A stretch of DNA of 34,567 bases from Acidobacteriota bacterium (GTDB taxonomy: Bacteria; Acidobacteriota; Terriglobia; Bryobacterales; Bryobacteraceae). The DNA lies in contig JAGWQP010000020.1 of NCBI GenBank assembly GCA_028876805.1, positions 1 to 34,567 on the forward strand. The letters are read 5' to 3'. Both the position numbers and the translations under genes were made by a program. The notes under the pieces were generated by a model. It was not told where the DNA came from. It searched no databases and was given only the letters and a program-made list of their open reading frames with translations. Shown here one piece after another: positions 5,654 through 25,685 of the stretch. The stretch's first letter is position 1, and the number at the start of each line of letters is the position of its first letter.

Positions 5654-6805
5654 ATGGGCGACTACGACAGCGAGCTGTCCCGCATTGTCGAGGAACTGAA
5701 CCGCGCGGCGCCCAGTCAGAAGTCGGCGCCGGGCACGCCTGGGTCGACGGCATCGCTCGATCAACTGCTGGACTTCGCCACCAAACGCAACGCCTCCGAC
5801 ATCCTGCTGGTGGCGGGGGCCCCCCCGGTTCTGCGGGTCAACGGAGCGCTGGCGCCCAACCTGGGCGCTGCTCTCGGCCCGGAAGACGTCCGCACCCTCA
5901 TGCTGCCGTTGCTTGCACCTTCGCAGATCGAGGAGCTCCAGAAACGCAGATCCGTCGACTTCGGGTTTGTCCGCGAAGGCGTTGGTCGTTTCCGCGTGAA
6001 CATCCATCACCAGCGCGGTACACTCGCGGCGAGCATCCGCCTGCTCCCCTCCCGCATCCCGTCGCTCGAATCCCTGCACCTTCCTGGGTCCCTCGCTAAG
6101 CTGGCCGAGCGCCGCCAAGGTCTAGTCCTGGTTACTGGCGCCACAGGCTGCGGCAAGACTTCGACGCTCGCTGCCTTGATCGACCTCATCAACACCCGCC
6201 GCGCCGCACACGTGGTCACCATCGAGGACCCGGTCGAATACCAGCACGTCAACCGCGCCGCCATCATCGAGCAGATCGAACTCGGCCGTGATACCCCCGA
6301 TTTCACCGGCACCCTCCGCAGCATTGTCCGCCAGACTCCGGACGTGATCCTCATCGGAGAAATGCGCGATACCGAAACCGTCGCCACCGCCCTGACCGCG
6401 GCCGAGACCGGCCACCTGGTCCTGTCCACACTGCACACCAACGACGCCATCCAGGCCGTCAGCCGGATCCTCGATTCTTTCCCCACCGCCAACCAGCCGC
6501 AGATCCGCCAGCAGCTGTCGCTTGCGCTGCTGGCCATCATCGCCCAGCAGTTGGTGCCCGGCACAGACGGCCAATCTCGGTGGCCGGCCACCGAGATCAT
6601 GATTGCCACCGACGCGGTGCGGGCCCTCATCCGGAAAGGCGACGACCATCAACTCCGCAGCCAGATCTCAGTCGGCCGCGCCGACGGCATGATGACCATG
6701 GAGCAGTCGCTCGCCGAGCTGGTGCGCACCGGCCGCATCCACCGGGAAACCGCCCTCGCGCATTGCTTTCGCGTCGAGGACCTCCGCCATTACCTCGGAT
6801 CGTAA
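5654..6805 (+). CDS. PilT-like type IV pilus retraction ATPase
   Basis: Hexameric secretion-type ATPase of the PilT/PilU branch, 383 aa from ATG 5654; an in-frame TTG at 5636 is possible. The N-terminal PAS-like region contains the DILLVAGAPPVLRVNG stretch typical of PilT. It is followed by Walker A GATGCGKTS, the Asp box VTIEDPVEYQH, Walker B VILIGEMRDTET and the His box HLVLSTLHTND. The C-terminal segment GMMTMEQSLAEL matches PilT and not PilB, which also carries a tetracysteine zinc site that is absent here. It would power pilus retraction at the inner membrane (twitching motility, DNA uptake). No other pil genes lie in the window, so it is an isolated copy. It is about 30 residues longer than the usual PilT, the excess lying at the N-terminus. 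Confidence 0.88.
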   Translation: MGDYDSELSRIVEELNRAAPSQKSAPGTPGSTASLDQLLDFATKRNASDILLVAGAPPVLRVNGALAPNLGAALGPEDVRTLMLPLLAPSQIEELQKRRSVDFGFVREGVGRFRVNIHHQRGTLAASIRLLPSRIPSLESLHLPGSLAKLAERRQGLVLVTGATGCGKTSTLAALIDLINTRRAAHVVTIEDPVEYQHVNRAAIIEQIELGRDTPDFTGTLRSIVRQTPDVILIGEMRDTETVATALTAAETGHLVLSTLHTNDAIQAVSRILDSFPTANQPQIRQQLSLALLAIIAQQLVPGTDGQSRWPATEIMIATDAVRALIRKGDDHQLRSQISVGRADGMMTMEQSLAELVRTGRIHRETALAHCFRVEDLRHYLGS

Positions 6806-6858
6806 TCGGCTTTTTCCCTGCCCGTGCCTGCCGGGCTATCATGTTCAGGAGGTCTACC

Positions 6859-7668
6859 GTGCCTGTTCGTTTCCCGGCCTCCCTGACCACGACCGCGGTG
6901 ATAACGGCGCTCTCGTTTGCGGCCGCCGCGCAAGATGATTTCGACGGCAAGCAGGTGGCCGCCGCGCTTACTCGCAACAACATTGCTCCCGCTCCGCGCC
7001 TGGGAGATGGCCATCCCGATCTGGGCAATGCGACAGGTTCCTGGGTCCCTCCCGGGGTCGGCGATATGGCGGGCACCCACGGCGGCTTTGCTGGCAGCGC
7101 ACAACCCGAAAGGAAGCAGGACATCCCCTTTCTCTCCTGGGCCAAGACCCTCTTTGAACAGCGCAACGCCAACGTCACCAGAGACGACCCGGAGGGATTC
7201 TGCTTGCCGCCTGGAGGCCCGCGCCTGTACGCCACTTCTTTTCCGTTCCAGATCTACCAACTCCCCAACCGCATCCTCTTTGTCTTCGAAGGTGGCGCCC
7301 ACATGTGGCGGGTCGTCTACATGGACGGGCGCAAGCACACGCCAGCCGACCGTTTGAATCCCACGTATCTGGGCGAAGGTATCGGACATTGGGAGGGCGA
7401 CACTCTGGTTGTCGACGTCACCGGCTTCAACAATCGCACTTGGCTCGATGCCGCCGGCCATCCCCACACCGAACAACTCCACGTCGTTGAGCGCTTCACT
7501 CGCGTGAATCAGTTGATTCTCCATTACGAAGCGACCATCGAGGATCCTGGCGCTTACACCGGTCCCTGGACCACCAGCTGGAACATCCTGTTCCACCCAG
7601 GCATGGAGCCCTACGAATACGTCTGCCAGGAGAACAACGCCGACCTCAAACACCTGGTCGGGAAGTAG
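6859..7668 (+). CDS. Exported HWEGDTLVVD-family protein, paralogue 1
   Basis: Uncharacterised secreted protein of 269 aa. The GTG at 6859 is chosen because AGGAGG lies 6 nt upstream; the ORF track start at 6580 runs back through the PilT gene. A signal peptide covers about residues 1-26 (ALSFAAAAQ). The conserved core reads PGGPR, then FQIYQLP, WRVVYMDGR, GHWEGDTLVVDVTGF, LHVVERFTR, ATIEDPGAY, and finally YEYVC. A cysteine just before PPGGPR and the cysteine of YEYVC are shared with all five other copies in this window. I know the family as a common acidobacterial group without assigned function. No enzyme motif is recognisable, and the abundance of conserved Trp, Asp and Gly suggests a beta-rich periplasmic domain. 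It is first in a run of four same-strand copies. Confidence 0.75.
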   Translation: MPVRFPASLTTTAVITALSFAAAAQDDFDGKQVAAALTRNNIAPAPRLGDGHPDLGNATGSWVPPGVGDMAGTHGGFAGSAQPERKQDIPFLSWAKTLFEQRNANVTRDDPEGFCLPPGGPRLYATSFPFQIYQLPNRILFVFEGGAHMWRVVYMDGRKHTPADRLNPTYLGEGIGHWEGDTLVVDVTGFNNRTWLDAAGHPHTEQLHVVERFTRVNQLILHYEATIEDPGAYTGPWTTSWNILFHPGMEPYEYVCQENNADLKHLVGK

Positions 7669-7768: not shown

Positions 7769-8590
7769 ATGCGAAACCGACTTCGAGACTTGATGATCGT
7801 TTGGACTGCTCTGGCTGGCCTTGGGTCACTGGCCGCCATGCTGGCCGTGGCGCAGGCCCCGGCGTACCGGGCGCCGCGGACTGCCGATGCAAAGCCCAAC
7901 TTGAACGGGATCTGGCAAGCGCTCAACACAGCGGATTGGGATCTCCAAGGCCATGCGGCCGCACAAGGACCGGTACTTTTGCTCGGAGCGGCCTTCTCGG
8001 TCCCGCCCGGCTTGGGCGTCGTCGAAGGCGAGGAGATCCCGTACCTGCCGGCGGCAGCGACCAAAAAGAAGGAGAATCAAGCCAACTGGGCCAAGCTCGA
8101 CCCGGAGGTCAAATGTTATCTGCCGGGCGTGCCCCGCGCCACCTATCTCCCTTATCCCTTCCAGATCATTCAGTCCCAGAAGGTGATTATGATTTCGTAC
8201 GAGTTCGCGGGGGCGGTTCGCACCATCAATATGGAGGCTCCGACAAAGGCACCTGCCGACAGTTGGATGGGGTGGTCGAACGGTCATTGGGAGGGCGAGT
8301 CGCTGGTGGTTGACGTCACCAGCCAAAATGACCAAACCTGGTTCGACCGGGCCGGTGATTTTCATAGCGACGCCCTGCACGTGGTGGAGCGCTACACACC
8401 GCGCAGCGCCGACACGCTGACCTACGAAGCGACGATCGAGGACTCCAAGACTTTTTCGCGGCCCTGGAAGATCAGCATGCCGCTTTATCGTCACGTGGAG
8501 AAAGACGCCCGGATGCTGGAATACAAATGTGTCGAGTTCAGTGAAGAGTTGTTGTATGGGCATCTGCGGAAGAAGCCCAGCAACCCGTAA
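7769..8590 (+). CDS. Exported HWEGDTLVVD-family protein, paralogue 2
   Basis: Secreted protein of 273 aa with a signal peptide ending near AAMLAVAQA (about residue 29) and then an N-terminal motif (PNLNGIWQALNTADWD) related to the PDLxGxWT stretch of the two following genes. The core is slightly divergent: CYLPGVPR replaces CxPPGGPR, then FQIIQSQ, GHWEGESLVVDVTSQND, LHVVERYTP, EATIEDSKTF and LEYKCVEF. Both invariant cysteines are kept. It has its own strong promoter and a gap of about 100 nt from the preceding copy, and is followed after 13 nt by the third copy. Function unknown. Confidence 0.75.
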   Translation: MRNRLRDLMIVWTALAGLGSLAAMLAVAQAPAYRAPRTADAKPNLNGIWQALNTADWDLQGHAAAQGPVLLLGAAFSVPPGLGVVEGEEIPYLPAAATKKKENQANWAKLDPEVKCYLPGVPRATYLPYPFQIIQSQKVIMISYEFAGAVRTINMEAPTKAPADSWMGWSNGHWEGESLVVDVTSQNDQTWFDRAGDFHSDALHVVERYTPRSADTLTYEATIEDSKTFSRPWKISMPLYRHVEKDARMLEYKCVEFSEELLYGHLRKKPSNP

Positions 8591-8603
8591 GGATGGAGGC
8601 GCC

Positions 8604-9629
8604 ATGACCCGTCGTTTGCTTGCTTTCACAACGGCTTTCGCGGCCACAGTATTGGTTCTGCTGCTTGGCGAGACCCCTGCACGGGCTCAATCGCCGGCGA
8701 AGAAAGCAGCCCCGGCCGGCAAGTCCTGGACCCCACCACGCACGCCGGACGGCACCCCGGACCTGCAGGGAATCTGGACCGACTCCACGCTGACGCCTTT
8801 GGAAAGGCCCAAGGGTCTGGGGGCCAAAGAGTTCTACACCGAAGAGGAATTTGCCAAACTTTCGGCGCGGGTCCGCCAAGGCGAAGTGGGCGAGGAAGGC
8901 GATTTGGGCGCCGCCCGCGAGCAAACCCTCCGCTACGATCTCAGCCTGTACGGATTTGACATCACCAAGGCGCGGTTCGCGTCCAACCGGCGGACTTCTC
9001 TCGTCGTGGGACCGGAGGGCGTCGTGCCTCCCATGCTTCCCGAGGCGAGAAAGAGGAACGCCGAACGCACCGCGAAAAACAAGGGACACGAATTCGACAG
9101 TTACGAGAACCGGCCCCTGAGCGAGCGCTGCATCCTGATGAATCAGGAGCGGATTCCGATGCTTCCCGGAGCCAACGACAACAACCTTCTACAGATTGTG
9201 CAAGGCCCGGGCTACGTAACCCTGCTTCACGAGATCGACCATGACACGCGCGTCATCCCCACTGATGGGCGCCCCCATGTGCCGCAGAACATCCGCCTTT
9301 ACCAGGGAGACTCGGTGGGCCATTGGGAAGGCGATACGCTGGTGGTGGACACCACCAATTTCACGAACCTGACAGCCTTCCGGGGATCGAGCGACAGGCT
9401 GCATTTGGTGGAACGCTTCACGCGCACGGCGGAGGACACGGTCGCGTACCGCTTCACAGTGGAAGATCCCACTACCTGGGACAGACCCTGGACCGCGGAG
9501 GTTCCGATGACCAAGACACAAGGACCGGTGTACGAGTGGGCCTGCCATGAGGGGAATTCGATGATCTCCACCATCCTCAATGGAGCGCGCGTCACCGAGG
9601 CACAGGGCGCCGAGAAAGCAGGGAAATAA
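8604..9629 (+). CDS. Exported HWEGDTLVVD-family protein, paralogue 3
   Basis: Secreted protein of 341 aa. ATG 8604 is preceded by GGAGG at 8595-8599, which is preferred over the ORF-track start inside the previous gene. The signal peptide ends near PARAQS (about residue 29). This copy and the next form a longer subfamily. After SWTPPRTPDGTPDLQGIWT there is a charged insertion of about 100 residues with FYTEEEF, then RTSLVVGPEGVVPP, RPLSERC, LQIVQGPGYV, IPTDGRPH, SVGHWEGDTLVVDTTNFT, LHLVERFTR, FTVEDPTTWDRPW, YEWACHEGN and LNGAR near the end. The two conserved cysteines are present (SERC and YEWAC). Function unknown. Confidence 0.78.
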   Translation: MTRRLLAFTTAFAATVLVLLLGETPARAQSPAKKAAPAGKSWTPPRTPDGTPDLQGIWTDSTLTPLERPKGLGAKEFYTEEEFAKLSARVRQGEVGEEGDLGAAREQTLRYDLSLYGFDITKARFASNRRTSLVVGPEGVVPPMLPEARKRNAERTAKNKGHEFDSYENRPLSERCILMNQERIPMLPGANDNNLLQIVQGPGYVTLLHEIDHDTRVIPTDGRPHVPQNIRLYQGDSVGHWEGDTLVVDTTNFTNLTAFRGSSDRLHLVERFTRTAEDTVAYRFTVEDPTTWDRPWTAEVPMTKTQGPVYEWACHEGNSMISTILNGARVTEAQGAEKAGK

Positions 9630-9647
9630 GGACTTATGGGAGGGAAA

Positions 9648-10676
9648 ATGAGCCGTCGATCGTTCGCTGTAACGGCCGCGCTGGCGGCGTTCACCTTCTC
9701 GGTCGGCACGCCGCCCGCCGCCGGTCAGGCGTTGTCACCGGCTGCGAAACCGGCCAAAGAGGCGAAGTCCTGGACCCCGCCGCGTACTCCCGACGGCGCC
9801 CCGGACCTCGAAGGGGTCTGGACCAACAACACGGCCACGCCCTTGCAACGGGCGAAGAATTTGGCGGGGAAGGAGTTCTATACCCAGGCCGAATTGGAAG
9901 GCCTGGTCAAAGGCGAAAAAGATCGCCTCGCGAAGAACGAAGAGGAAGGGCGTCCCACCGAGCCGGGAACCGCCGAGGACGTGCATTACGATTTCAGCGA
10001 GTATGGCCTCGACCGGGGGCAGTCCAAGCTCGTCTGGAACCAGCGCACGTCGATCATCGTGGGACCGGACGGGAGGATTCCTCCGCTGACACCCGAGGCG
10101 CGCCAGAGACTGGCCGAACGCCGTGCCAAAGAAAAGGGACATGAATTCGACGGCCCGGAAAGCCGGCCGCTCGGGGCGCGGTGCCTGGCTCGGGCGAACG
10201 TGGGACCGCCGCTGCTGCCCACCGCTTACAACAGCAATCTCCAAATCGTGCAGGGTACCGGATACGTCGCAATCGAGACCGAGGAGATCCACGACGCTCG
10301 GCTCATTCCCACCGACGGACGCCGGCACGTGCCCAGTACTATCCGACAATGGATGGGCGATTCAGTGGGCCATTGGGAAGGGAACACGCTGGTGGTCGAT
10401 ACCACCAATTTCACCGATCTGAATCCCTTCGAGGGAGCCCAGAACCTGCACGTCGTCGAACGGCTCACCCGCGTCGATGCCGAGACGATCCTCTACCAGT
10501 TCACGGTGGAGGATCCGGGGATGTGGACCAAGCCGTGGTCCGGAGAAGTGCCGATCTCCAAGATTCAAGGCCAGCTTTACGAGTACGCGTGTCACGAGGC
10601 GAATTATGGCCTCGCCAACACGCTCCGCGGCGCTCGCGTGGCCGAGGAAGAAGCCGGCAAGAAGACCGCCAAGTAG
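9648..10676 (+). CDS. Exported HWEGDTLVVD-family protein, paralogue 4
   Basis: Secreted protein of 342 aa, evidently a tandem duplicate of the preceding gene: the same SWTPPRTPDGAPDLEGVWT opening, FYTQAELEG, RTSIIVGPDGRIPPLTPEARQR, LGARC, LQIVQGTGYVA, SVGHWEGNTLVVDTTNFTD, LHVVERLTR, FTVEDPGMW, YEYACHEAN and LRGARVAEE. The ATG at 9648 follows GGGAGGG and is preferred; ATG 9636 in the same frame also has a weak AAGGA. The signal peptide is about residues 1-27. The 18-nt gap to the preceding gene indicates one transcript. Function unknown; the pair may act on similar substrates or form a heteromer. Confidence 0.78.
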   Translation: MSRRSFAVTAALAAFTFSVGTPPAAGQALSPAAKPAKEAKSWTPPRTPDGAPDLEGVWTNNTATPLQRAKNLAGKEFYTQAELEGLVKGEKDRLAKNEEEGRPTEPGTAEDVHYDFSEYGLDRGQSKLVWNQRTSIIVGPDGRIPPLTPEARQRLAERRAKEKGHEFDGPESRPLGARCLARANVGPPLLPTAYNSNLQIVQGTGYVAIETEEIHDARLIPTDGRRHVPSTIRQWMGDSVGHWEGNTLVVDTTNFTDLNPFEGAQNLHVVERLTRVDAETILYQFTVEDPGMWTKPWSGEVPISKIQGQLYEYACHEANYGLANTLRGARVAEEEAGKKTAK

Positions 10677-10707: not shown

Positions 10708-11121
10708 ATGAAGACGAGACTGTACGTTATGCTGGCCGGCGCCGGCCTGCTTCTGGCAGCCATGCCCGTTCGGGCGCATCACGCGTTTGCCGCGGAATTT
10801 GATCAGACGAAACCGCTCAAACTACACGGAACCGTCGTCAAGTGGGAAGTAAGCAATCCGCACTCCTGGATTCACATGGATGTTAAAGGCGACGATGGCA
10901 AAACGGTTACTTGGATGATTGAAGGCGGCAGCCCGAACAACCTCTACCGGCTCGGGTTCACGAAGGATTCTTTGCCGCCCGGCGCCGAGATCCTGGTCGA
11001 GGGCTACCAGGCTAAGGACGGATCCACTCGGGCGGTCGGCAAAAACGTTACCTTCGCAGACGGCAGAAGGTTATTCCTTGGTCTGTCGGCGTTGGAGAGT
11101 GACCCGAACGCGAAAAAGTAG
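10708..11121 (+). CDS. Small exported protein resembling DUF6152
   Basis: 137-aa secreted protein. The signal peptide is about residues 1-23 (cleavage near PVRA), followed immediately by the signature HHAFAAEFDQTKPLKL and then the small beta-barrel-like sequence GTVVKWEVSNPHSWIHMDV, TWMIEGGSPNNLYRLGF and LPPGAEILVEGYQAKDG. The mature N-terminal His-His pair is typical of this family and could bind a metal; that is an inference. It closes the plus-strand run (32 nt after the previous gene, AGAGG upstream). A second copy lies at 14649-15044 and a third is fused to an HWE-type domain at 15054-16163, so the two families appear functionally linked. Confidence 0.75.
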   Translation: MKTRLYVMLAGAGLLLAAMPVRAHHAFAAEFDQTKPLKLHGTVVKWEVSNPHSWIHMDVKGDDGKTVTWMIEGGSPNNLYRLGFTKDSLPPGAEILVEGYQAKDGSTRAVGKNVTFADGRRLFLGLSALESDPNAKK

Positions 11122-11186: not shown

Positions 11187-12416
11187 CTATCGGGGTTTAA
11201 GCGGCGCGGGTCTGCCGAATTTGGCCTCGTCAATCGGAACGTTAGTCTTGATGTCGGTCAACTCGATCGAATCACGTCCGTCGAGCCACGCGTAGGTGAT
11301 GCGGAACGGCAGTTTGATTCCGTTGACGTCGCGATAATTGCCGTAGTCGATTTGCGTGGGAACGCGGCCGATGGGCGAGTTGCCGTAGCGCAACTCGCGC
11401 AACAGCAGGCCGTTCTGTCGGTCGAAGTACAAAGTGACGAGAAGACCGCGCGGCCCGGTTCCCTGTACGACGTCGCACTCGTGACTCTGCCCCAAGGCCA
11501 GATCCTGCTGGAGCGAAGTTTGGCTGGATGGGCCCGGAAGATCCATGATCGAGGTCGGCGGACCGGTCTTCAGATTCGTGAGAATCTGCTTGATCTGTCC
11601 CGGAAACGAGAGTTGCGCGTCGAATCTCGCGCCGTCCAGATCGCCTCCACTTAACTGAAATTCCCCGAGCACATTGAGCGGTGTTCTCACCCAACCGGTA
11701 CGGCCATTGTAGCTGCGGATCTGGTCGCCCCGGCCAGTCTCAGCCTTAAACAAGATGATCGTGGAGCGCTGATCCGGGACCTTCGCATCGATTTCGACGT
11801 CGCCACCACCGCCGAATCCTCCGAAGCCTACGCTGGTCCCTTTGCCCACAAAGCTGGTGAGACCGGCCAACCGCTGGGCTCCGCCGGATGCCTCGATGTA
11901 CTTGTCGAGAATCGACCCGGGCGCAGCGAGTCCGGGAGGCGAGACGATGACGTCATCCGGCTCCAAGCTGGGCGTGGTGTAAATGGCCTCCATCGTCGGT
12001 GTCACGAGCGGCCGGTCGCGGTTCCGATGGCACGTCCAACAGGTCACCATTTGACGGCCTCCGAAATTGTCCTTGTTGATGGTGGCCACCATGGCCACCA
12101 TGCGGCGCGCCGTCCGCTTCCGCGGAGTGTCCGCTGCCCAGTCGACCCGGTCGGTGCCGGCATTGGCATGACAATCCGAGCAGTCGAACTGCAGGGCGGC
12201 CGTCATGATCCCCATCGTCTCCATGAAATCGTCGACGGGAATCCCTTTAAGCACCTGGATGTTCTTGAAGACTTGTTCCGCCAGGAGGGGTTTGTCTGGT
12301 GCGGCGGGTTGGGCGACCGCCAGCCCGGCGCTGATCAGCGCGACAGCCGCAATCCCGGTGGCCGCGAGCGCCGCTCGTCCGGACCCTGACCTGATCGTTC
12401 GTCCCCTTAGACTCAT
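11187..12416 (-). CDS. Dihaem reaction-centre-type cytochrome c with C-terminal LolA-like domain
   Basis: Exported 409-aa protein. The signal peptide is about residues 1-36 (AGLAVAQ). Residues 45-140 resemble half of the tetrahaem cytochrome subunit of photosynthetic reaction centres: two CxxCH haem sites, CSDCH (79-83) and CWTCH (126-130), each preceded by a helix with candidate axial methionines (MGIMTAAL and MVAMVATIN). Residues 160-409 form a beta-rich domain (ILDKYIEASGG, YNGRTGWVRTP, YGNYRDVNGIKLPFRI) like the LolA/LppX lipoprotein-carrier fold. Such fusions are frequent in non-phototrophic acidobacteria and are presumed periplasmic electron carriers. The start ATG 12416 is preferred over 12455 because a TATAAT lies at 12459-12464. 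It is convergent with the plus-strand run and divergent from the selenoprotein candidate. Confidence 0.8.
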   Translation of the reverse strand: MSLRGRTIRSGSGRAALAATGIAAVALISAGLAVAQPAAPDKPLLAEQVFKNIQVLKGIPVDDFMETMGIMTAALQFDCSDCHANAGTDRVDWAADTPRKRTARRMVAMVATINKDNFGGRQMVTCWTCHRNRDRPLVTPTMEAIYTTPSLEPDDVIVSPPGLAAPGSILDKYIEASGGAQRLAGLTSFVGKGTSVGFGGFGGGGDVEIDAKVPDQRSTIILFKAETGRGDQIRSYNGRTGWVRTPLNVLGEFQLSGGDLDGARFDAQLSFPGQIKQILTNLKTGPPTSIMDLPGPSSQTSLQQDLALGQSHECDVVQGTGPRGLLVTLYFDRQNGLLLRELRYGNSPIGRVPTQIDYGNYRDVNGIKLPFRITYAWLDGRDSIELTDIKTNVPIDEAKFGRPAPLKPR

Positions 12417-12458
12417 ATGCGTCGTTGTGCCTCCTAGGAGCGGGTGGAAAGTCACATA

Positions 12459-13153: not shown

Positions 13154-13885
13154 ATGATGAGACGAGCAGGATCGGCGCGACTTTTAGCAGGCCTTATTCT
13201 CGCAAGTCTCGGCGTCCTGGCTCAGCCTGCTTCCAAAGCTTCCGGGCACTGGGAAGGCACTCTCGAAGCGCCCAATCAGAAAGTGGGCATTGTCGTGGAT
13301 CTTTCAAAGAGTGCTGCCGGACTCTGGACGGGCTCGTTCAGCATCCCGCAGGCCAACACCCGCGACATCCCCGTTGAAAAAATCTCCGTGGAAGATCCGG
13401 TTGTGCGTTTTGTGGTCCCCGGTTTTCCGGGCAGCCCTTCGTTTGAAGGAAAACTCTCCGCTGATGGAATGAGCCTTGCGGGCACAGCCACCGCGCGGAA
13501 TACCCCGATCCCGTTTCAGCTGAAGCGGACGGGGGAAGCGAAGGTGAATCTGCCGCCGCCCAGCAGCGTCCTGCCGAAGGACTTTGAAGGCACGTGGGAA
13601 GGCACGCTCGATGCCAACGGCAACCAGTTGCGGATCGTGGTGAAGCTGGCGCCGGCGACCAACGGCGCCGCCACCGGCGCACTGATCAGCGTCGACCAAG
13701 GCAACCAGCCAATCCCAATCGATACCATCACCATCAAAGGCAGGCAGTTGAAATTCGAGGTGCGCCTGGTGGGGGGAACCTTCCTGGGAGCGCTGGGCGC
13801 GAATGGCGAGATCTCGGGCAATTGGAGCCAGGGCCCCAACTCCCTGCCGCTCACTCTGAAACGCGCGGCCGCTTCCACGCCGTAA
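13154..13885 (+). CDS. Exported protein with two tandem WEGTL beta repeats
   Basis: 243-aa protein with a signal peptide (about 1-24, ending near GVLAQP). The mature part is two copies of one domain of about 95 residues: GHWEGTLEAPNQKVGIVVDL to PIPFQLKRT, and GTWEGTLDANGNQLRIVVKL to LPLTLKRA. Each copy has a central IPVEKISVE or IPIDTITIK strand and a GKLSADGMSLAGT or GALGANGEISGNW turn. I know this module as the N-terminal domain of many acidobacterial exported alpha/beta hydrolases and beta-lactamase-like proteins; here it stands alone and duplicated, with no hydrolase attached. It starts 39 nt after the selenoprotein candidate and could be cotranscribed with it. Binding or scaffold role inferred only. 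Confidence 0.75.
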   Translation: MMRRAGSARLLAGLILASLGVLAQPASKASGHWEGTLEAPNQKVGIVVDLSKSAAGLWTGSFSIPQANTRDIPVEKISVEDPVVRFVVPGFPGSPSFEGKLSADGMSLAGTATARNTPIPFQLKRTGEAKVNLPPPSSVLPKDFEGTWEGTLDANGNQLRIVVKLAPATNGAATGALISVDQGNQPIPIDTITIKGRQLKFEVRLVGGTFLGALGANGEISGNWSQGPNSLPLTLKRAAASTP

Positions 13886-13907: not shown

Positions 13908-14645
13908 CTAGCGCGCGTCCTGGCAGATGTATTCGAACAGTTCGCCCCCGGCAATCCAGGAGGAGGGCGTCTTCTCCCCGATGGTCCAATGAAGCGACCA
14001 CGGCTTCGTGTAGGCGCCGGGATCGTCGATCGTGGCATCGTAGTTGAGCGTCTTTAGATTCGGACGCGAAATCCGTTCCGTGAGATGCAGCTGCGATGTG
14101 GTCGGGTAGGCCCCGGCAATCCACTGCTTTTCGTTGAACCCGACCGTGTCGATCACCAGCGCATCGGCTTCCCAGTGCCCCACGGAGTGGCCGAAGAAGG
14201 TCGGACGCAGATCGTCCCCGGCCGGGTGCGCGCGGCCGTCCATATAGACGACGCGCCAGGAGTGCGGACCGGCAATATCGAGGAGAAAGACGCTCTTGAG
14301 TTCGGGAGTGTCTACGATCTCAAATCCGGGAGGATTGAAGAAGGACGGACCGCCCGCCGGTTTGCACGCGACCAGTGGCGGATACAAATCCTTCTTGGAA
14401 CTCCGGTACTGATACAGAGCCTTGGCCCACGGCTGGAAGGGCACGTCGGCGGCTCGCGGCATCCCTCCGAGACCCGGCCTCACTTCCCAATAGCCCCTCT
14501 TTTCCGGCGTGGATCCCAGGTTCACGTGGCCATCGGGCCAGCGCGGTGTCTCGAAATCCGCCGGCGCCTGAGCCCAGCAACACACAGCCAGCAAGCACCC
14601 GGCGGCGCTGGTGATCGCGGCTTTCGTAAGAAACCAGGTGAGCAC
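13908..14645 (-). CDS. Exported HWEGDTLVVD-family protein, paralogue 5
   Basis: Secreted protein of 245 aa from GTG 14645 (GAGG about 8 nt upstream). The signal peptide ends near CCWAQA; the preceding SAAGC is not a good lipobox. The mature N-terminus PRWPDGHVNLG is shared with the fusion protein upstream in the operon (PRWPDGQVRLG). The core follows: LVACKPAGGPSFFNPPGFEI, WRVVYMDGRAHP, VGHWEADALVIDTVGFNEKQW, LHLTERISRP, ATIDDPGAYTKPW and FEYICQD. The HWEGD motif is relaxed to HWEAD. Both invariant cysteines are present. It is the last gene of a four-gene minus-strand operon. Function unknown. Confidence 0.75.
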   Translation of the reverse strand: MLTWFLTKAAITSAAGCLLAVCCWAQAPADFETPRWPDGHVNLGSTPEKRGYWEVRPGLGGMPRAADVPFQPWAKALYQYRSSKKDLYPPLVACKPAGGPSFFNPPGFEIVDTPELKSVFLLDIAGPHSWRVVYMDGRAHPAGDDLRPTFFGHSVGHWEADALVIDTVGFNEKQWIAGAYPTTSQLHLTERISRPNLKTLNYDATIDDPGAYTKPWSLHWTIGEKTPSSWIAGGELFEYICQDAR

Positions 14646-14648
14646 CGG

Positions 14649-15044
14649 CTACCTCATCGGCAACTTCTGACCGCTCGCAAGGATCATCGCGGTGGTGGGC
14701 ATCGAGCCGCCGCCGTTGCTTCCGTCTTTGGCGAGCGCTGCCCCCTGAACGGTTACCTTGTCGCCAATCCTGACCGTGTCCCGCTTCCAGCCGCCGCGGA
14801 CCAGGGCGTACGGAGGCCCCATTTCCACCTTGAAACTCCGCACCGTGCCGTTTTCGTCCTTCGCATCAAGGTAGACAAAGGCGTGGGGATTGATCCAATC
14901 GAGCTTCGTTACAATTCCCGTAACCGTGAACGGCTTCGTCGAATCGTACTCCGCATCAAACGAGTGATGTGCCATCGCGAGCGCCCCATTCAGAACGATC
15001 GCCCCGCATCCCATCAACCAAGTCGCGGTAGGTTTCATCGTCAT
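14649..15044 (-). CDS. Small exported protein resembling DUF6152, second copy
   Basis: 131-aa secreted protein; ATG 15044 has AAGGAG 7 nt upstream. The signal peptide ends near GALAMA, so the mature chain begins HHSFDAEYDSTKPFTVTG, followed by IVTKLDWINPHAFVYLDAKD, FKVEMGPPYALVRGGW and IGDKVTVQGAALAKDGS, which is the classic form of the family. It is a paralogue of the 10708-11121 gene and of the N-terminal half of the next gene upstream. It lies 9 nt after the fusion gene and 3 nt before the paralogue-5 gene, firmly in one operon. Function unknown. Confidence 0.78.
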   Translation of the reverse strand: MTMKPTATWLMGCGAIVLNGALAMAHHSFDAEYDSTKPFTVTGIVTKLDWINPHAFVYLDAKDENGTVRSFKVEMGPPYALVRGGWKRDTVRIGDKVTVQGAALAKDGSNGGGSMPTTAMILASGQKLPMR

Positions 15045-15053
15045 TTCCGCTCC

Positions 15054-16163
15054 TTATCGGACGAATGTTGATTCCGCGCTGTCCTCGCAGAAGTATTCTT
15101 GAATCTCTTCGTCGGGAACCCACTGGACAGTCCAACCGCCCTTCCAGGGCCGGGTGTAGGTTCTGGGATCGTCGACCGTGACCTGGTACGTCAAGGTGTT
15201 CAGGTCCGGCCTGGAAAAACGTTCCGTCAAATGAAGCGCCTCGGTATGGGGAAGCCCCCCTGGCGCGAGCCAGAAGCGCTCATTAAAGCCGACCGAATCC
15301 ACCACGAGCGTATCGGTTTCCCAATGGCCGACCGAGGTTCCGTAATAGCTAAGGACGGTTTCTGCGGCTTGAGCCAGGGGCCGCTTGTCGGTATAGATGA
15401 TGCGCCAGTTGCGATCGCCCCCGCCCAGCAGGACCAGAATGCGGCCTAGTTCCCGCTGCTCCACGAACTGGAATCCGTGCGGCGTTAGGAACTGGCGCGG
15501 GCCGCCGGGCGGAACGCAGCGCGCGATCGGATCATCCTGCAACCGCCGGCGTTGGCGGTACAGGTAGAGCGCCTTGGCCCACGGCAGAAAGGGCGCCACC
15601 CGGTCGGCATCGGAGAGGTTCAACAAGAGACCGTCATCGTCGATCGCGATCGTGGCGCCGGTATTTTCGACCAAGGCTTTGAAGCTCGCGGCTCCCCAAT
15701 ATCCTTTTTTGCCCGGAGGCGGTCCCAAGCGGACCTGACCGTCCGGCCAGCGCGGAGCCGGGTCGGGCGGCGCGGACGCACGGTGCGTAACCGACGGGGC
15801 AAACAGTCGCTTGCCAGTCCGTGTCAACACCACGGATTTGGCCAAAACCTGCCTCGCCTGGCCTCTGGTTGGAATTCCTTCCACCACCACCACATCACCG
15901 ATCCCGAGGGCGCTCGGTTTCCAACCGTCGCGATCCAGATCGAGCGGGTTCCCAAATTCCACGGCCCAATTGATGATCGCGCCGGATGGATCGCGCACAT
16001 CGATAAACAGGTAGGCGCGCGGGTTCACCCAATCGATCCTCGTGACCGGCCCCTCTAATTTCACTTGGCGGTCGCCGTCATAGGTCGCCGAAAATGGGGC
16101 TTGCGCGGAGGCCGAGGCCATAACCAGAAGCACGGCGAAGGGCGCCCTGACGAGGTGATTCAT
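15054..16163 (-). CDS. Natural fusion of DUF6152-like and HWE-type domains, paralogue 6
   Basis: 369-aa secreted protein with two parts. Residues 1-125: a signal peptide ending near ASASAQA, then FSATYDGDRQVKLEGPVTRIDWVNPRAYLFIDVRD and LDRDGWKPSALGIGDVVVVEG, i.e. a DUF6152-like domain in which the initial His-His is lost. Residues 140-369: PRWPDGQVRLGPPPGKKGYW, then RCVPPGGPRQFLTPHGFQFV, WRIIYTDKRP, VGHWETDTLVVDSVGFNERFW, LHLTERFSRPDLNTLTY, TVDDPRTYTRPW and EYFCEDS, the same domain as paralogue 5. The start ATG 16163 comes one base after the stop of the upstream gene (TAACATG) without a visible Shine-Dalgarno, so translation is probably coupled. Confidence 0.78.
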   Translation of the reverse strand: MNHLVRAPFAVLLVMASASAQAPFSATYDGDRQVKLEGPVTRIDWVNPRAYLFIDVRDPSGAIINWAVEFGNPLDLDRDGWKPSALGIGDVVVVEGIPTRGQARQVLAKSVVLTRTGKRLFAPSVTHRASAPPDPAPRWPDGQVRLGPPPGKKGYWGAASFKALVENTGATIAIDDDGLLLNLSDADRVAPFLPWAKALYLYRQRRRLQDDPIARCVPPGGPRQFLTPHGFQFVEQRELGRILVLLGGGDRNWRIIYTDKRPLAQAAETVLSYYGTSVGHWETDTLVVDSVGFNERFWLAPGGLPHTEALHLTERFSRPDLNTLTYQVTVDDPRTYTRPWKGGWTVQWVPDEEIQEYFCEDSAESTFVR

Positions 16164-16164
16164 G

Positions 16165-16566
16165 TTAATCTCGCGTGATCCGGAAGTCGCCTTGTGCCGT
16201 GCCTTGGTGCCAGGTGCCTTCGATCCTCCGATGGTACGAGCTCAGGTCTTCCAAGCGGCCTTCGGCCGCGATGTGCACCGCCTTGCCAGACGGATCCTTG
16301 GTGTCGGCCTCTATGCGAACCGTCCAATTCGTTACGTCCAGGTAGACGCTCGCGAGCGGAATCGCATCCGGCCCCGGGTTGATGGTGCCGCTGATGTTCT
16401 TGCCGTCCCAGTTCATCACCAGGGTCAGGTGCGTGCGCTGGGTGATCGTCGGCCCCCAGTCTCCGGCCCAGGTGCCGGTTAACGGATGGCCTTCCTGAGC
16501 GAGCAATGACAGGATGGCGATTACCCACCCCAGAGAGCCAATCAGATGGTACGCTCGTCTCGGCAT
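16165..16566 (-). CDS. Exported GTWAGDWGP-type small protein, operon head
   Basis: 133-aa secreted protein, first gene of the four-gene minus-strand operon. ATG 16566 has AGGAGG 4 nt upstream. The signal peptide is about residues 1-23. The mature chain reads LTGTWAGDWGPTITQRTHLTLVMNWDG, GTINPGPDAIPLASV, VRIEADTKDPSGKAVHI and IEGTWHQGTAQGDFRITRD. This is a single beta-rich domain that I have seen repeatedly beside DUF6152-like genes in acidobacteria, always without assigned function. Its general design (GTW at both ends, alternating strands) resembles a lipocalin-like or WEGTL-type barrel. Function unknown. Confidence 0.72.
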   Translation of the reverse strand: MPRRAYHLIGSLGWVIAILSLLAQEGHPLTGTWAGDWGPTITQRTHLTLVMNWDGKNISGTINPGPDAIPLASVYLDVTNWTVRIEADTKDPSGKAVHIAAEGRLEDLSSYHRRIEGTWHQGTAQGDFRITRD

Positions 16567-18089: not shown

Positions 18090-18701
18090 TTACATCCGGA
18101 CGGTTACCGGCTGGCGCAAGGCCACCGTAAGACGGGTTTCGGGCGCGAGGTGAACGTTTCGTATGCCCGTAGCTAATGCGCCGGTGGTGCCCACTCCGGC
18201 ACCGGCTCCCGTGCCGACCAGGGCCCCTACGCTCCCAGCGGTAGCGGCTCCGATCGCCGCGCCGGCACTCGCGATTCCCCCGATGAGCAGCAGGTTCCGC
18301 TTCTTATGATCCTTGCTGACGCGCGCGGCCGTCGAAGTCGTCACTCGGTAGGCCTTTCCTTGCCGTTCCACCGAGTCAATGGCGACGCCCATCACGGCGC
18401 GGCCGCGTAGGCGCCCGGACTGTTTTGATTCGACCACGTGCCCACGGCAAACCGCTCCCTGCGGCAGAATCACCACGCCGTTGCGGCTGACCGGCGCCGC
18501 CAAGTGGGCCGTGAACCGCGTCCCCGCCCGGTCGCGCCGGGTATCGAGCGCCTGCGCCAACCGGACGGTAATTTGCGTGCCAGCCGGCAGAACAGTTTCG
18601 GGCTGCGTGGGAGTGCTGGGAGCGGACTTAGGAGCTCCCGCAGCCAGCAACGGAGAACAAACGGCGAACACCAAACCGATTCGGACAAGACATTTTTTCA
18701 T
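18090..18701 (-). CDS. Exported glycine-zipper protein, copy 1
   Basis: 203 aa from ATG 18701; ATG 18716 and GTG 18722 are in-frame alternatives and none has a clear Shine-Dalgarno. The signal peptide MKKCLVRIGLVFAVCSPLLAAGA is followed by a beta domain: VLPAGTQITVRLAQALDTRRDRAG, FTAHLAAPV, LPQGAVCRGHVVESKQSGRLRGRAVM. A glycine-rich hydrophobic segment (IGGIASAGAAIGAATAGSVG, about 145-180) resembles the glycine zippers of SlyB/OmpA-like envelope proteins. The end is PETRLTVALRQPV. A paralogue with the same order lies at 25686-26474. It is likely periplasmic or outer-membrane associated; the function is not assigned. Confidence 0.75.
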   Translation of the reverse strand: MKKCLVRIGLVFAVCSPLLAAGAPKSAPSTPTQPETVLPAGTQITVRLAQALDTRRDRAGTRFTAHLAAPVSRNGVVILPQGAVCRGHVVESKQSGRLRGRAVMGVAIDSVERQGKAYRVTTSTAARVSKDHKKRNLLLIGGIASAGAAIGAATAGSVGALVGTGAGAGVGTTGALATGIRNVHLAPETRLTVALRQPVTVRM

Positions 18702-18732
18702 AGGTGTTTCGTTCATGGGCACGGCTCATACC

Positions 18733-20856: not shown

Positions 20857-23325
20857 TCAGTTGATTGCGCCAGTATAAACCTGGAATGGAGCCCAGTAGT
20901 AAGGCTTGGCGTAAGAACCGCCACCGCGAACGAGGGACAGCTTGGCAGCACGCAAGGCATCGGCTGGGGTGGAACCGCGTGCGATCTCGGCGTAAAGACC
21001 CGACATTAGTTGCGCAGTCGAGCGGTCGTTCACATCCCACAAGCCGGCAATCACATTGCGCGCGCCGGCGCGAAGGAAGGCCCAGGCGAAGCCGACCGGA
21101 CCTTCACCCGCGTAGGTTTTCGCTCCGGCGCTTCGGCACGCGGAAATGGTCACCAGTTCGGCGGTAAGCGGGACGGACATCACGTCGCGCGCAAAGAGCT
21201 TGCAGCGGTCCGCTGGACCGGACAGGATGACGGCCGAATCGAGCGGACTCTGCGTGTTGGCCGCCGCGTGGGCAGAAAAGTGGATGAATTCGAAGCTCCC
21301 CGGCTGGGTGCCGACATATGAATCCGGGCGGGCTTCCGGCCCTCGCAAAACCTTCGAGTCGGAGTCGCCCATCGTGGAGCGGATGCTGTCGATTTCGCGC
21401 GCGGCGAACTCTAGCCTGGGATACTCCTGGAGGACCTGCGCAGGGTCTCCCATCAGGAGCAGTCCCTTTCCCTTGTGGAAGTATGGATGGCGGCTAGTGT
21501 CCACCAGGTAATCGAGCGACGGCGCAATCTCCACGTTCGCCTCTTCGATCCAGAACTTGTTACTATCGCTGCTAGCCGGAAAGCTTTCGAAGTTGAATGA
21601 GTACAAATCCTCGTCCGGCACAAGGATAACCCGGCAGCCCGCACACAGATCTTCGGCTGCCGGAGCCACCAGCGTGTCATACAACTTGCGGCCGACGTCG
21701 CCCGCGGCATCCAGCGGATTGCGCTGCCCGAGCACAATGTTGCGATAGGCTTCGACGAGGGCGCGGATCGTTTTCGCCGGTGGCAGTGTGTAATTGCCAA
21801 TCCGCTCTGCCGTAATCACCCAAAGGTACGATTGATTCTCACCGAGCCAGTATTCGAGCAACACCGCTTGGGCTTGCTGTGCCAACTTCTGGTAAGCCTT
21901 CGCTGCGTGCGACTGAGCGGGCGTCGGACGGCCACTCCGCTGGGCGAGCACGTGCGACCGGCTCGACTCGGCCACTTCAAGAGCCCGCTGGGACTGATGG
22001 TTGGCGACCAGAAAGTCGACGTACTTGCGATAGAACCGGATCAAACTCGCAAGGTAGGCGAACCTGTAGTCGTCTTTGATCAGCTGAGAACTCAGCCGTT
22101 CAATGGCTGAGACCGTGATCCTGAACTCCGCATCGGCACGCACGGTACGATGGCTCTGAACATAAACATCGGCAAGACCAGTGTGTGCTTCCAGGGCCAC
22201 GCTGGGGTCTTCGGCCGGCCCGCTCATCGTCGAGCGGAACAAGGATTCCGCCTTGGCAAGCTGGCCCCGGCCGAGAGCGATTCGACCCGCGTTGAGGAGC
22301 GAAGACGCTTCGAAGAGCGTATTTCCGAGGCTCCTCTTCAGCGCCAGCGCCTCATTGTTGTATTGCTCGGCAGCATCCCAGTCTTGCAATTGGATTGCGT
22401 TGTTCGCCAGATCGGTCAACCAGCGAGAGGCCCAATCGTCGTTCGGCACCTGGCGCGCTACTTGCAGTGCATGGCGAAATGCGGCCTTTGCTTCGGTGTA
22501 GCGGCCTGTATCCTCCAGGACGTTCCCGTCATTTCCGGTCCAGATTTGCTCTTCGAACTGGTTGCTTGCCCTGGCGAAGCCAGTTTGCGCGTGCTCATAA
22601 TAAAGCCGAGCCTTGTCATAATCCCCCAGGCGGTAGTAACAGGTCCCCAAATTGCCGTCGTCGCGTGCAACTGATTCATTCGCGTGCAATTGCGTGTGGA
22701 GCATTCTTGCTCTCTCTAGCCAAATAATCGCCTCGTCGAACCGGGCGGCGGTTAGCAAGGTGTAACCTAGGTTCCCTGTGGCAGTCGCCTCCAAGTAAAA
22801 CTCTTGTAGGGCGGATGCCTCTTTGATCACTCGGCGTAGTGAAGCTTCTGCTTCATGGAACCGAACCTGCTTCACCAACAGTAGGGCGCGGCGGAGCTCT
22901 ATCTCAGTGGCTAGACCATTGGAATCCGATTGGTGTGCCCGTTCAGCAGCTCGATTGAGTAGATCTTCAGCCTCCGCGTAGCGCGCCATGATGTAAGCTG
23001 CAAAAGCTCGCAGCAGAAGCGTTTTTCCACGAGCCTCTGCCCATTCGGGCCTATCAGGAGGATCCTCATTCAGAACAGCTAGAGCGGCAGAGGGCTTGCG
23101 TTGCGCCAACAGGATCTCTGCTTTCAAGAGGCGAAAACGCCACTCGAAAGTCAAATCTTTCGCTTGCCTGGCGCGAGAAAGCCCACGCTCAGCCTTACTG
23201 AGGGCCAGGAGATGTTGGTCAGATTCTAAAAGATTGATCGCAGCACGATAATCCCCACTGAGACTGCGCGGCTGGGTCACACAGCCGACAAGCAGTAGTG
23301 CCGTGAGCGACAGCAATACACGCAT
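20857..23325 (-). CDS. TPR-CHAT caspase-like protease, predicted lipoprotein
   Basis: 822 aa. The N-terminus MRVLLSLTALLLVGC is a signal peptide with lipobox LVGC (Cys15), so the protein should be exported and lipid-anchored. Residues about 30-450 form tetratricopeptide-type helical repeats (ATGNLGYTLLTAARFDEAIIW, GNLGTCYYRLGDYDKARLYY, SSLLNAGRIALGRGQLAKAE). Residues about 500-820 are a CHAT domain (caspase family clan CD): SYLWVITAERIGNYTLP, ILVPDEDLYSFNFESF, catalytic His686 in HFSAHAA and catalytic Cys730 in TISACRSAGAKTYAGEG, then AFLRAGARNVIAGLWDVND and YWAPFQVY. The dyad is intact, so a protease is expected. It closes an operon with an ECF sigma factor, an anti-sigma factor and an unknown protein. 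Confidence 0.88.
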   Translation of the reverse strand: MRVLLSLTALLLVGCVTQPRSLSGDYRAAINLLESDQHLLALSKAERGLSRARQAKDLTFEWRFRLLKAEILLAQRKPSAALAVLNEDPPDRPEWAEARGKTLLLRAFAAYIMARYAEAEDLLNRAAERAHQSDSNGLATEIELRRALLLVKQVRFHEAEASLRRVIKEASALQEFYLEATATGNLGYTLLTAARFDEAIIWLERARMLHTQLHANESVARDDGNLGTCYYRLGDYDKARLYYEHAQTGFARASNQFEEQIWTGNDGNVLEDTGRYTEAKAAFRHALQVARQVPNDDWASRWLTDLANNAIQLQDWDAAEQYNNEALALKRSLGNTLFEASSLLNAGRIALGRGQLAKAESLFRSTMSGPAEDPSVALEAHTGLADVYVQSHRTVRADAEFRITVSAIERLSSQLIKDDYRFAYLASLIRFYRKYVDFLVANHQSQRALEVAESSRSHVLAQRSGRPTPAQSHAAKAYQKLAQQAQAVLLEYWLGENQSYLWVITAERIGNYTLPPAKTIRALVEAYRNIVLGQRNPLDAAGDVGRKLYDTLVAPAAEDLCAGCRVILVPDEDLYSFNFESFPASSDSNKFWIEEANVEIAPSLDYLVDTSRHPYFHKGKGLLLMGDPAQVLQEYPRLEFAAREIDSIRSTMGDSDSKVLRGPEARPDSYVGTQPGSFEFIHFSAHAAANTQSPLDSAVILSGPADRCKLFARDVMSVPLTAELVTISACRSAGAKTYAGEGPVGFAWAFLRAGARNVIAGLWDVNDRSTAQLMSGLYAEIARGSTPADALRAAKLSLVRGGGSYAKPYYWAPFQVYTGAIN

Positions 23326-23328
23326 CTA

Positions 23329-24153
23329 CTAGTACGGGCTACCGCCATCGTCCGCCGCGACGGCCATAACGTCCCCTTCGACAGGTGAGCCCAGATTCAC
23401 ATGGATCATCGTCAGTCTACGGGTCTTTTTGCTGAGCTGCAACTCGGCGAGTTGAATCGTCCCAAAACCTTCAACATGGACGACATGCCCAAAGCACTTG
23501 TATTCAGGAGGGCGCTCCGGTTCTAGAGTGCGCAGTAAGGAGACGCAAGTGATGCCTTTCGTATGTGGCATCTCGGCATCATCCACGGCCGGGCGGTGAA
23601 ACCATCGTTGCACCCTTTCTGGCACTTCATGCAGTCGATGCTTTAGCGTAATACGATCAAAAAGGCTCCGGAATTCCTTTTCGGTCCGATATGCATCTGC
23701 AACTTGCTGATGCGTGTGCAGCCGGTCAAAGACATCCAGACAGAGATCCACGTTCACCGGGACACCAGCAATTTTCAGATTCTCAAACCGCGTTCCAGCA
23801 AGTTTGATCGAGGGCTGGCTGTCGGGACCGCCGTCATGGGTCGAGACTAGGTTTGCAACCACGCGATCAGCCGTGAGCATACCCATGATGTTGAGACCCT
23901 CGATTGTAGACTTGATCAATGTGTTAAAGACCATCCCGCCATCTCCGTTGCTCTTCGAGCCGGCAACTTCGCTATGAGCTACGTCGAACTGGAGGATTTC
24001 GCGATAACGGAAGTCCCGCGAACGAGCCGTGCCGTAGCCGCCAATCTCCGGCAGAGCGGCCGCCGCCTGGATTTCAATGATCTCTTGAAACGGATTGTGA
24101 ATACGGCCGCCCGCACCGATGGCATGTCCGCTAAAACGGTACCGACTAGGCAA
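23329..24153 (-). CDS. Uncharacterised protein of the sigma/CHAT operon
   Basis: 274 aa, family not recognised with a name. The start is a TTG at 24153 preceded by GAGG 6 nt upstream. No signal peptide or membrane segment is evident. The sequence is beta-rich. The first part, RYRFSGHAIGAGGRI to FNTLIKSTIEGLNIMGMLTADRVVANLVSTHD, resembles repeating beta strands with glycine turns. A middle segment (VNVDLCLDVFDRLHTHQQVADAYRT) is helical. The last part again has strands (GITCVSLLRTL, IQLAELQLSKKTRRLTMIHVNLGSPVEGDV). It lies 3 nt upstream of the CHAT gene and 11 nt after the anti-sigma gene. The tight linkage suggests a partner, target or effector of the CHAT protease. I cannot assign a biochemical role. 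Confidence 0.65.
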   Translation of the reverse strand: MPSRYRFSGHAIGAGGRIHNPFQEIIEIQAAAALPEIGGYGTARSRDFRYREILQFDVAHSEVAGSKSNGDGGMVFNTLIKSTIEGLNIMGMLTADRVVANLVSTHDGGPDSQPSIKLAGTRFENLKIAGVPVNVDLCLDVFDRLHTHQQVADAYRTEKEFRSLFDRITLKHRLHEVPERVQRWFHRPAVDDAEMPHTKGITCVSLLRTLEPERPPEYKCFGHVVHVEGFGTIQLAELQLSKKTRRLTMIHVNLGSPVEGDVMAVAADDGGSPY

Positions 24154-24164
24154 CGTGCACCTCG

Positions 24165-24842
24165 CTAATAGAATTCGAAATGAAACAGGTAGGTAGCAAT
24201 CTTACCATTCTCGGGCCCGTTTTCCCCGAAAATTGTAAGTTCGTAGTCTCCGGAGGACAGTTTCCCGGCCGGCACCAGGACGGTGATGGGCTGCGCGCCG
24301 GCCGGCGCAGGCCCTGTAACCTCAAATATATTTTGGCCAGCTCGCGTCAGCACGCAACGGTAATCTGAAGACCGCACGTCGGGCGGAATGTCCGCCGAAA
24401 GCGGCACAAAGGGCGCGCCCCGCGGAACGCGGATGGGTGCAGCCTCGCCGCGGGAAGCGCCGGCCAACTGAATCGCCGGCAGCACCACCGGGTTCTCGAG
24501 GAGGTGCTCGAGGCGCGGGATTACGATTGCGCCTTCATACAAGGCAACGCCGGCGAACGCAAAGGCTGCCGCTGATGCGAGAGCAAACGCCCATTGCAGC
24601 TGCAACGAGAAAAACCGGAATGGTTTTCGCGGCACGGGCGGGCTTGCCGGCGCCGCGAGCCGGCTCGGGCGACCCATCACGGCTCGGGCGTTGGCGATGA
24701 ACACACCACCCGATTCCACGGCTTCCGCGCAGTCGGTGCATTCGAAATAGTGTTGTTCGAAATCCTCTGCTTCGGAGGCGGACAATTCGCCGAGCAAGTA
24801 CCGTTCAGCGGCTTGTGTTCCGATGGCTTGAGAATGGTCCAT
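24165..24842 (-). CDS. Zinc-finger anti-sigma factor, single membrane helix
   Basis: 225 aa from ATG 24842. The N-terminal ZAS-type zinc finger has the HxxxCxxC motif at His31, Cys35 and Cys38 (EQHYFECTDCAEAVE) after the helix YLLGELSASEAEDFE, the classic cytoplasmic domain that traps ECF sigma factors. One membrane helix lies at about residues 82-104 (LQWAFALASAAAFAFAGVALY). The C-terminal portion, about 120 residues, should be periplasmic and beta-rich (SSDYRCVLTRAGQNIFEV, ITVLVPAGKLSSGDYELTIFG). It sits 53 nt after its cognate sigma factor. The periplasmic domain is on the same side of the membrane as the lipoprotein CHAT protease of the operon, so it could be a proteolysis target (inference). 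Confidence 0.85.
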   Translation of the reverse strand: MDHSQAIGTQAAERYLLGELSASEAEDFEQHYFECTDCAEAVESGGVFIANARAVMGRPSRLAAPASPPVPRKPFRFFSLQLQWAFALASAAAFAFAGVALYEGAIVIPRLEHLLENPVVLPAIQLAGASRGEAAPIRVPRGAPFVPLSADIPPDVRSSDYRCVLTRAGQNIFEVTGPAPAGAQPITVLVPAGKLSSGDYELTIFGENGPENGKIATYLFHFEFY

Positions 24843-24895
24843 CAATTTACGCCCTCATGGTTACAGTGAAGCGCCTGCCGATTCCGTTTCGCAGC

Positions 24896-25518: not shown

Positions 25519-25547
25519 GATCTTGAAACTGAATGCGGAACTGCTTT

Positions 25548-25579
25548 TGCCTGCGAACTCATACCAGACCGCGCAGGCA
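25548..25579 (+). repeat. 8-bp inverted repeat with 16-nt loop, leader element
   Basis: TGCCTGCG and CGCAGGCA are exact complements separated by 16 nt. In the plus-strand leader of the second glycine-zipper gene this would form a stem-loop just upstream of the terminator-like hairpin. It also lies upstream of the divergent sigma operon, so it might instead be an operator. Confidence 0.45.
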
Positions 25580-25594
25580 CCATAGCTTCGGTTT

Positions 25595-25619
25595 GGGGTG
25601 TTTTCGCCCCGATTTTTTT
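25595..25619 (+). terminator. Intrinsic terminator within the leader of the 25686 gene
   Basis: GGGGTG-TTTT-CGCCCC pairs over 6 bp (one G-T) and is followed by GATTTTTTTG. The orientation is plus strand. No plus-strand gene ends upstream, so it would act on a transcript that starts inside this intergenic region, as an attenuator or the end of a small RNA. Confidence 0.6.
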
Positions 25620-25623
25620 GCGC

Positions 25624-25673: not shown

Positions 25674-25685
25674 GGAGTAACAAGT

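Follow-up and report, generated by a model that had tools for sequence, protein, structure and literature searches.

A natural fusion of two exported families, DUF6152 and HWE, in an acidobacterial genome and the periplasmic module it may represent

A histidine at the N-terminus of a protein is a natural metal chelator. CusF-type proteins are periplasmic copper chaperones with an OB fold, and the ligands of CusF are Met, Trp and His residues within the barrel. The TctC/Bug solute-binding proteins occur as tens to hundreds of exported paralogues per genome, which share a few membrane partners. Metal binding has recently been demonstrated for a number of uncharacterised exported families that carry an N-terminal histidine (DUF4198, DUF6702, Ang-1, Ang-2; PMC12537917). 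DUF6152 (Pfam PF19649), an uncharacterised family, is not among the families named in that work. Canonical DUF6152 proteins resemble these metalloproteins in the apparent cleavage of the leader before a conserved histidine and in possessing a further conserved histidine. Some of the known N-terminal-His metalloproteins and histidine-brace copper proteins (LPMO, CopC) likewise have membrane partners. DUF6152 differs from all of these in its predicted OB fold (rather than a β sandwich), its two consecutive histidines, its pairing with a second family, HWE, and its massive amplification; the metal site is in this case predicted from sequence. The likeness to CusF would lie in export, a predicted OB fold and a conserved motif of metal-binding type; the ligands differ. 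Pfam scans of the window proteins and of DUF6152 members gave no match to CusF. HWE recalls TctC/Bug in its amplification and shared membrane partners; the sequences and partners are unrelated and a ligand-binding role for HWE is a guess.

Here we analyse a DUF6152 member that lacks the near-invariant His-His (HH) and Asn-Pro-His (NPH) of its family and is fused to HWE. It is encoded in a 34,567-nucleotide stretch of acidobacterial DNA, which we call the window. A literature search for DUF6152, DUF6644 or the motif GHWEGDTLVVD found no paper, and a PDB sequence search with DUF6152 and HWE found no relatives.

The fusion protein and its operon

The fusion and the genes around it are as follows.

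16165–16566 (−): X, a 133-residue exported protein directly upstream of the fusion, without Pfam match
15054–16163 (−): DUF6152–HWE fusion protein, 369 residues, ATG start, exported, predicted signal peptide at about residues 1–20
15822–16103 (−): DUF6152 domain of the fusion (PF19649), residues 21–114, predicted OB fold
16098–16103 (−): residues 21–22 of the fusion, Gln-Ala where the family has His-His; lost putative metal site
16017–16019 (−): residue 49 of the fusion, Arg in place of the His of Asn-Pro-His (His in 53 of 54 rows)
15078–15764 (−): HWE domain of the fusion, residues 134–362, predicted β barrel; assigned by blastp and profile, without Pfam or NCBIfam model
14649–15044 (−): D3, the separate DUF6152 of the fusion operon, AHHSF and NPH intact (PF19649, 97.3 bits)
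14649–14651 (−): TAG stop codon that ends D3, 3 nt before the GTG of the HWE gene downstream, with which it shares a frame
13908–14645 (−): the separate HWE of the fusion operon, in the paralogue group closest to the fused HWE domain (blastp, HWE tree)

Translation of the open reading frame 15054–16163 (−) gave an intact protein. The preliminary description had matched its first part to two small neighbouring proteins and the remainder to five neighbouring paralogues, and blastp bears this out. The N-terminal part matches the products of 14649 (40% identity, E 1e-19) and 10708 (30%, 2e-14). The C-terminal part matches that of 13908 (40%, 3e-60) and those of 6580, 7769, 8529 and 9636 (44% to 32%, 3e-47 to 2e-17). 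By this measure the matches of both parts far exceed chance. The genes at 7769, 8529, 9636 and 10708 belong to a second cassette, of the H-H-D type, and are listed here with the HWE paralogue at 6580.

6580–7668 (+): HWE paralogue (blastp, profile), true start probably the ATG before MFRRSTVPVRF
7769–8590 (+): HWE paralogue (blastp, profile)
8529–9629 (+): HWE paralogue (blastp, profile), true start probably downstream of 8529
9636–10676 (+): HWE paralogue (blastp, profile)
10708–11121 (+): DUF6152 (Pfam), HH (His24-His25) and NPH intact

Adjoining this cassette is a gene for an exported protein with a CytoC_RC-type haem domain (11187–12455 (−); PF02276, E 2.2e-12), relatives of which lie near the cassette in five other loci (L061, L062, L100, L123 and L128). 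Elsewhere in the window, 18090–18722 (−), which has no Pfam match, and 25533–26474 (+) encode exported paralogues, around 37% identical over 162 residues, with a glycine-rich membrane-like stretch. The stretch 20857–25438 (−) resembles a sigma-regulated CHAT module: a CHAT-domain TPR protein comes first, then a zinc-finger protein of anti-sigma-like kind and a gene like those for sigma factors.

The names given to the two domains require some adjustment. The N-terminal domain had been called DUF6152-like; residues 16–102 score 72.7 bits against PF19649 (E 2.7e-20) where the cut-off is 27, and the domain is DUF6152 proper. Score, predicted fold and leader peptide all make the fusion a member of the family, though it is without HH and NPH. 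The C-terminal domain had been called HWE-type. The family assignment stands, and the name is a nickname from the motif GHWEGDTLVVD, the histidine of which occurs in only 35 of 66 members. The HWE part scores 346.5 bits over positions 3–222 of the 223 in our HWE profile (A2), a value inflated by the inclusion of the fusion itself in the profile. It carries the two cysteines, the glycine and the aspartate that are invariant in the family.

The single stop between D3 and the HWE gene, which share one frame, raises the question of whether faulty assembly or a frameshift has merely joined two neighbouring genes. Each of the other four genomes of the genus, independently assembled, has a full-length orthologue (67–73% identity) free of stops, and fusions exist elsewhere; we regard an artefact as refuted, its probability being vanishingly small. 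Several of these congeners and the window's own genome (at C425) have a second fused paralogue of about 50% identity. The fusion is therefore not restricted to a single genome, and counting across genomes extended it further: the fusion profile finds 32, 65, 24 and 56 matches in four proteobacteria, nearly all of them full-length fusions among the matches listed. DUF6152–HWE fusions thus occur in both Acidobacteriota and Proteobacteria, and DUF6152 precedes HWE in all 60 fusion rows read.

The operon order X–[DUF6152–HWE]–DUF6152–HWE is conserved. The last three genes keep this order in eight genomes. Operons of the C425-type fusions are arranged likewise, some of them with a second DUF6152 gene. 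In each of the ten fusion operons examined X immediately precedes the fusion (52–66% identity); it is absent from the 80 other DUF6152 loci examined. The exported product of 13154–13885 (+), with two similar GTWEG...GNWSQG-type repeats and no Pfam match, is like X in style, not significantly in sequence.

The fusion, D3 and the operon's HWE gene share one reading frame, with only the TAG and one codon between the latter two; judged from the reading frame, losing a stop of this kind would yield a fusion. Fused HWE domains of the window type form a clade in the HWE tree (support 99), and the operon's own HWE forms the partner group (together 99). Since the frame is shared and the fused HWE groups with that of the operon, we infer that the fusion would have arisen by tandem duplication of an in-frame DUF6152–HWE pair, the first copy of which lost its stop codon. 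In the DUF6152 tree, which rests on few alignment columns, AU tests leave a single fusion clade unrejected (p 0.77 and 0.52).

Association of DUF6152 with HWE

Similarity to a single DUF6152, together with a search pattern that includes AHH, served to select 80 loci, which come from Acidobacteriota, Gemmatimonadota and Proteobacteria. It had been conceivable that the families are mostly unlinked elsewhere. They are not: for 104 of the 112 DUF6152 genes in these loci of several phyla, an HWE gene lies no more than 600 bp away on the same strand. The same holds for 33 of 43 in the window's own genome, where about 4% is expected, since less than that share of the genome lies so close. The H-H-D cassette is the commonest arrangement in the 80 loci, and cassettes on sphingomonad plasmids repeat the DUF6152/HWE arrangement. 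The cultured sphingomonad Novosphingobium humi has a single DUF6644–DUF6644/HWE/DUF6152 cluster. One of the plasmids (Croceibacterium atlanticum, L168) carries two DUF6152 genes, an HWE gene and a TonB-dependent receptor gene in a row between two genes for G8-domain proteins. A locus titled 'MAG: Bordetella parapertussis' (L069, CALQCC020000009.1) has a fusion operon and H-H-D cassettes of the kind usual in Bryobacterales; the record is almost certainly an acidobacterial MAG under the wrong name.

The linkage is stronger in one direction than in the other, as many HWE genes are without a nearby DUF6152; in the window's genome a DUF6152 lies within 3 kb of just 55 out of 120. About 140 HWE matches, some of them fragments, are present in its 4.9 Mb among the matches listed.

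The distribution of DUF6152 is rare and bimodal. Only three of 60 Acidobacteriota genomes drawn evenly contain it, with 43, 34 and 1 copies, the window's own genome being one of the rows. Draft genomes of the window's genus each contain 40–49 copies (43 in the window's genome). Among 27 genomes, HWE is present in exactly the five that have DUF6152 and absent from the 22 that lack it; kinship ignored, the chance of this all-or-none pattern is one in 80,730. Copies of the two families increase in step: the ratios of HWE to DUF6152 in the five are 2:1, 13:4, 15:4, 13:5 and 87:34, and about 140:43 in the window's genome.

Neighbouring paralogues of the two families also diverge together. In the window's genome the distances between DUF6152 copies correlate with those between the neighbouring HWE copies in two gene orders (r 0.42, p 0.002 and r 0.52, p 0.0002) and over all gene orders (0.29, p 0.0004). 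Species history cannot act within one genome, so this correlation is unconfounded by it. The linkage, the recurrent fusion, the all-or-none co-occurrence and the correlated divergence of paralogues lead us to conclude, as the preliminary description proposed, that DUF6152 and HWE very probably work together.

The partnership need not be a lasting one. DUF6152 and HWE might act one after the other on a shared substrate, or take part in a common response, with fusion and operons securing only co-expression and equal dosage. HWE greatly outnumbers DUF6152 (about 140 to 43 in the window's genome) and under half of its genes lie near DUF6152, as would be the case if HWE perhaps works alone. The repeated fusion, tight spacing, co-divergence and total co-occurrence favour a lasting partnership, and we consider the looser association rather unlikely.

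Predicted folds and the putative metal site

AlphaFold2 models the fused chain with mean pLDDT 81 and pTM 0.79. The predicted strands of its DUF6152 part (residues 34–46, 49–57, 63–71, 91–99 and 105–114) suggest an OB-type five-stranded barrel. A Foldseek search with this part returned OB folds (Stn1, PriB, SSB and LysRS, lysyl-tRNA synthetase; best E 1.1e-3). An immunoglobulin-like or cupredoxin-like β sandwich, as in LPMO and CopC, was considered for DUF6152 and set aside, the model matching OB folds instead.

Canonical DUF6152 proteins have a hydrophobic leader (median 23 residues) with Ala or Gly directly before His-His (111 cases). The sequence at this point is of the type AxA followed by HH, and the placing of histidine at the mature N-terminus is a prediction from it. 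His-His is found in 53 of 54 aligned rows, with the window fusion the only exception. The fusion is likewise the only exception among the 31 copies found by the Pfam model in its own genome, the other 30 of which keep both HH and NPH. All 16 copies from two other genomes keep both. Because the search pattern for the 80 loci contains AHH, conservation was re-counted there on copies that do not match the pattern, and all 25 keep HH and NPH. Since an N-terminal histidine is a natural chelator and HH and Asn-Pro-His are near-invariant, a metal site is probable; we think it moderately likely that canonical DUF6152 binds metal.

These residues might instead serve another purpose, the OB fold binding a small molecule, a peptide or a glycan through the conserved HH and NPH. 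The range of ligands bound by OB folds is wide, some DUF6152 members show weak similarity to DUF5666 in Pfam scans, and the fused copy has been conserved without its histidines. Yet N-terminal-His metal sites are known by just such a signature (PMC12537917, PMC10952591), three co-conserved histidines of which two stand where the mature chain apparently begins, and we find a role without metal doubtful.

The fused copies of the window lineage have fared differently from their neighbours. Across eight orthologous operons the fused DUF6152 has lost HH in seven, whereas the separate DUF6152 keeps HH and NPH in all eight. One orthologue (G004) retains all three histidines and another (G002) has lost HH only; the rest have lost HH, most having NPR as well. 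With the separate copy intact throughout, the fused DUF6152 of this lineage appears to have kept the fold and lost the site, like the inactive member of paired active/inactive subunits. The window fusion, unlike the histidine-brace copper proteins, has no histidine at its mature N-terminus. It lacks the proposed ligands, and this copy therefore does not depend on binding a metal. The proteobacterial and C425-type fusions keep HH and nearly all also keep NPH.

HWE is a very large paralogous family, with up to 65 matches to the fusion profile in a genome of 2.6 Mb, for which we found no Pfam or NCBIfam model, similar solved structure or paper. Scans of 66 members against Pfam and NCBIfam gave nothing above chance. 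The name clashes with that of the HWE histidine kinases; Pfam gave no sign of a relation to these, with no kinase family matching any of the 66. Cys68, Gly126, Asp182 and Cys215 are invariant. AlphaFold2 predicts a mainly β structure for the single HWE domain encoded at 13908 (pLDDT 84, pTM 0.85). Foldseek with HWE alone gave no match in the PDB at E ≤ 0.001, the best lead being a streptavidin-type barrel (probability 0.89, E 0.05). The model suggests that HWE is a β barrel, perhaps stabilised by a disulfide; given the lack of a PDB match at that threshold, we can only guess that the barrel serves binding.

A proposed periplasmic module

Two further families were considered as partners. DUF6644 (PF20349) proteins are four-helix membrane proteins, usually encoded two side by side, which flank many of the cassettes. 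Kinship ignored, DUF6644 is present in 13 of 13 genomes with DUF6152/HWE and in none of 19 without. Its number stays at 2 to 11 per genome while DUF6152 and HWE multiply. A single histidine is invariant in DUF6644, as are Asp, Arg and Lys residues. In the smallest case (G064), two HWE genes, one DUF6152 and two DUF6644 lie in one place. PQQ dehydrogenases, which would hint at redox chemistry, occur in 20 of the 80 loci. In the window's genome they are not clearly enriched near HWE (9 of 45 within 3 kb, around 11% expected), and this candidate was dropped, the association there not being significant. That genome has about 45 PQQ-type β-propeller genes, a large exported family weakly associated with HWE.

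We propose that DUF6152 and HWE together make up a single module in the periplasm, probably dependent on metal, each family supplying one half; the window fusion would be one chain of such a module. Signal peptidase is predicted to cleave DUF6152 between AxA and HH, exposing the N-terminal His-His. This, with the histidine of Asn-Pro-His, would bind a transition metal; copper is the most likely, the identity of the metal being a guess. The HWE barrel would bind a substrate or partner and give each paralogue its specificity, so that amplification would widen the substrate range. The pair of DUF6644 proteins would act as the shared membrane partner. Because its metal ligands are gone, the fused chain is most likely a structural or recognition subunit, and the intact DUF6152 encoded at 14649 would carry the metal. 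Taken as a whole, a module with DUF6152 as the metal OB subunit, HWE as the recognition barrel and DUF6644 as the membrane partner is in our judgement slightly short of an even chance; its reaction, substrate and physical contacts are guesses.

Such a module need not be an enzyme. An N-terminal-His periplasmic protein that co-occurs perfectly with a four-helix membrane partner bearing one invariant histidine might also describe a device for metal scavenging or delivery, in which DUF6644 would be the membrane permease; CopC/CopD and the 'anglerases' would be its counterparts. Tens to more than 100 diverged copies would be unexpected for metal uptake and seem a better fit to substrate diversity. 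We therefore hold metal delivery to be distinctly unlikely.

The three families could even constitute a metal-dependent enzyme system of the periplasm that belongs to a class of its own, so far undescribed. This would comprise an OB-fold N-terminal-His protein, more than 100 interchangeable HWE specificity subunits per genome and a shared membrane partner, with one fused lineage serving as a pseudo-subunit without the metal site. So specific a proposal is, as it stands, unlikely to be right in full. Through the fusion, the cassettes and the exact co-occurrence of HWE with DUF6152 and DUF6644, three families that had each been a separate puzzle can now be tested as one system. The minimal version, with two HWE, one DUF6152 and two DUF6644, is small enough for knockout and expression, and the predicted N-terminal His-His site provides a direct first experimental handle.
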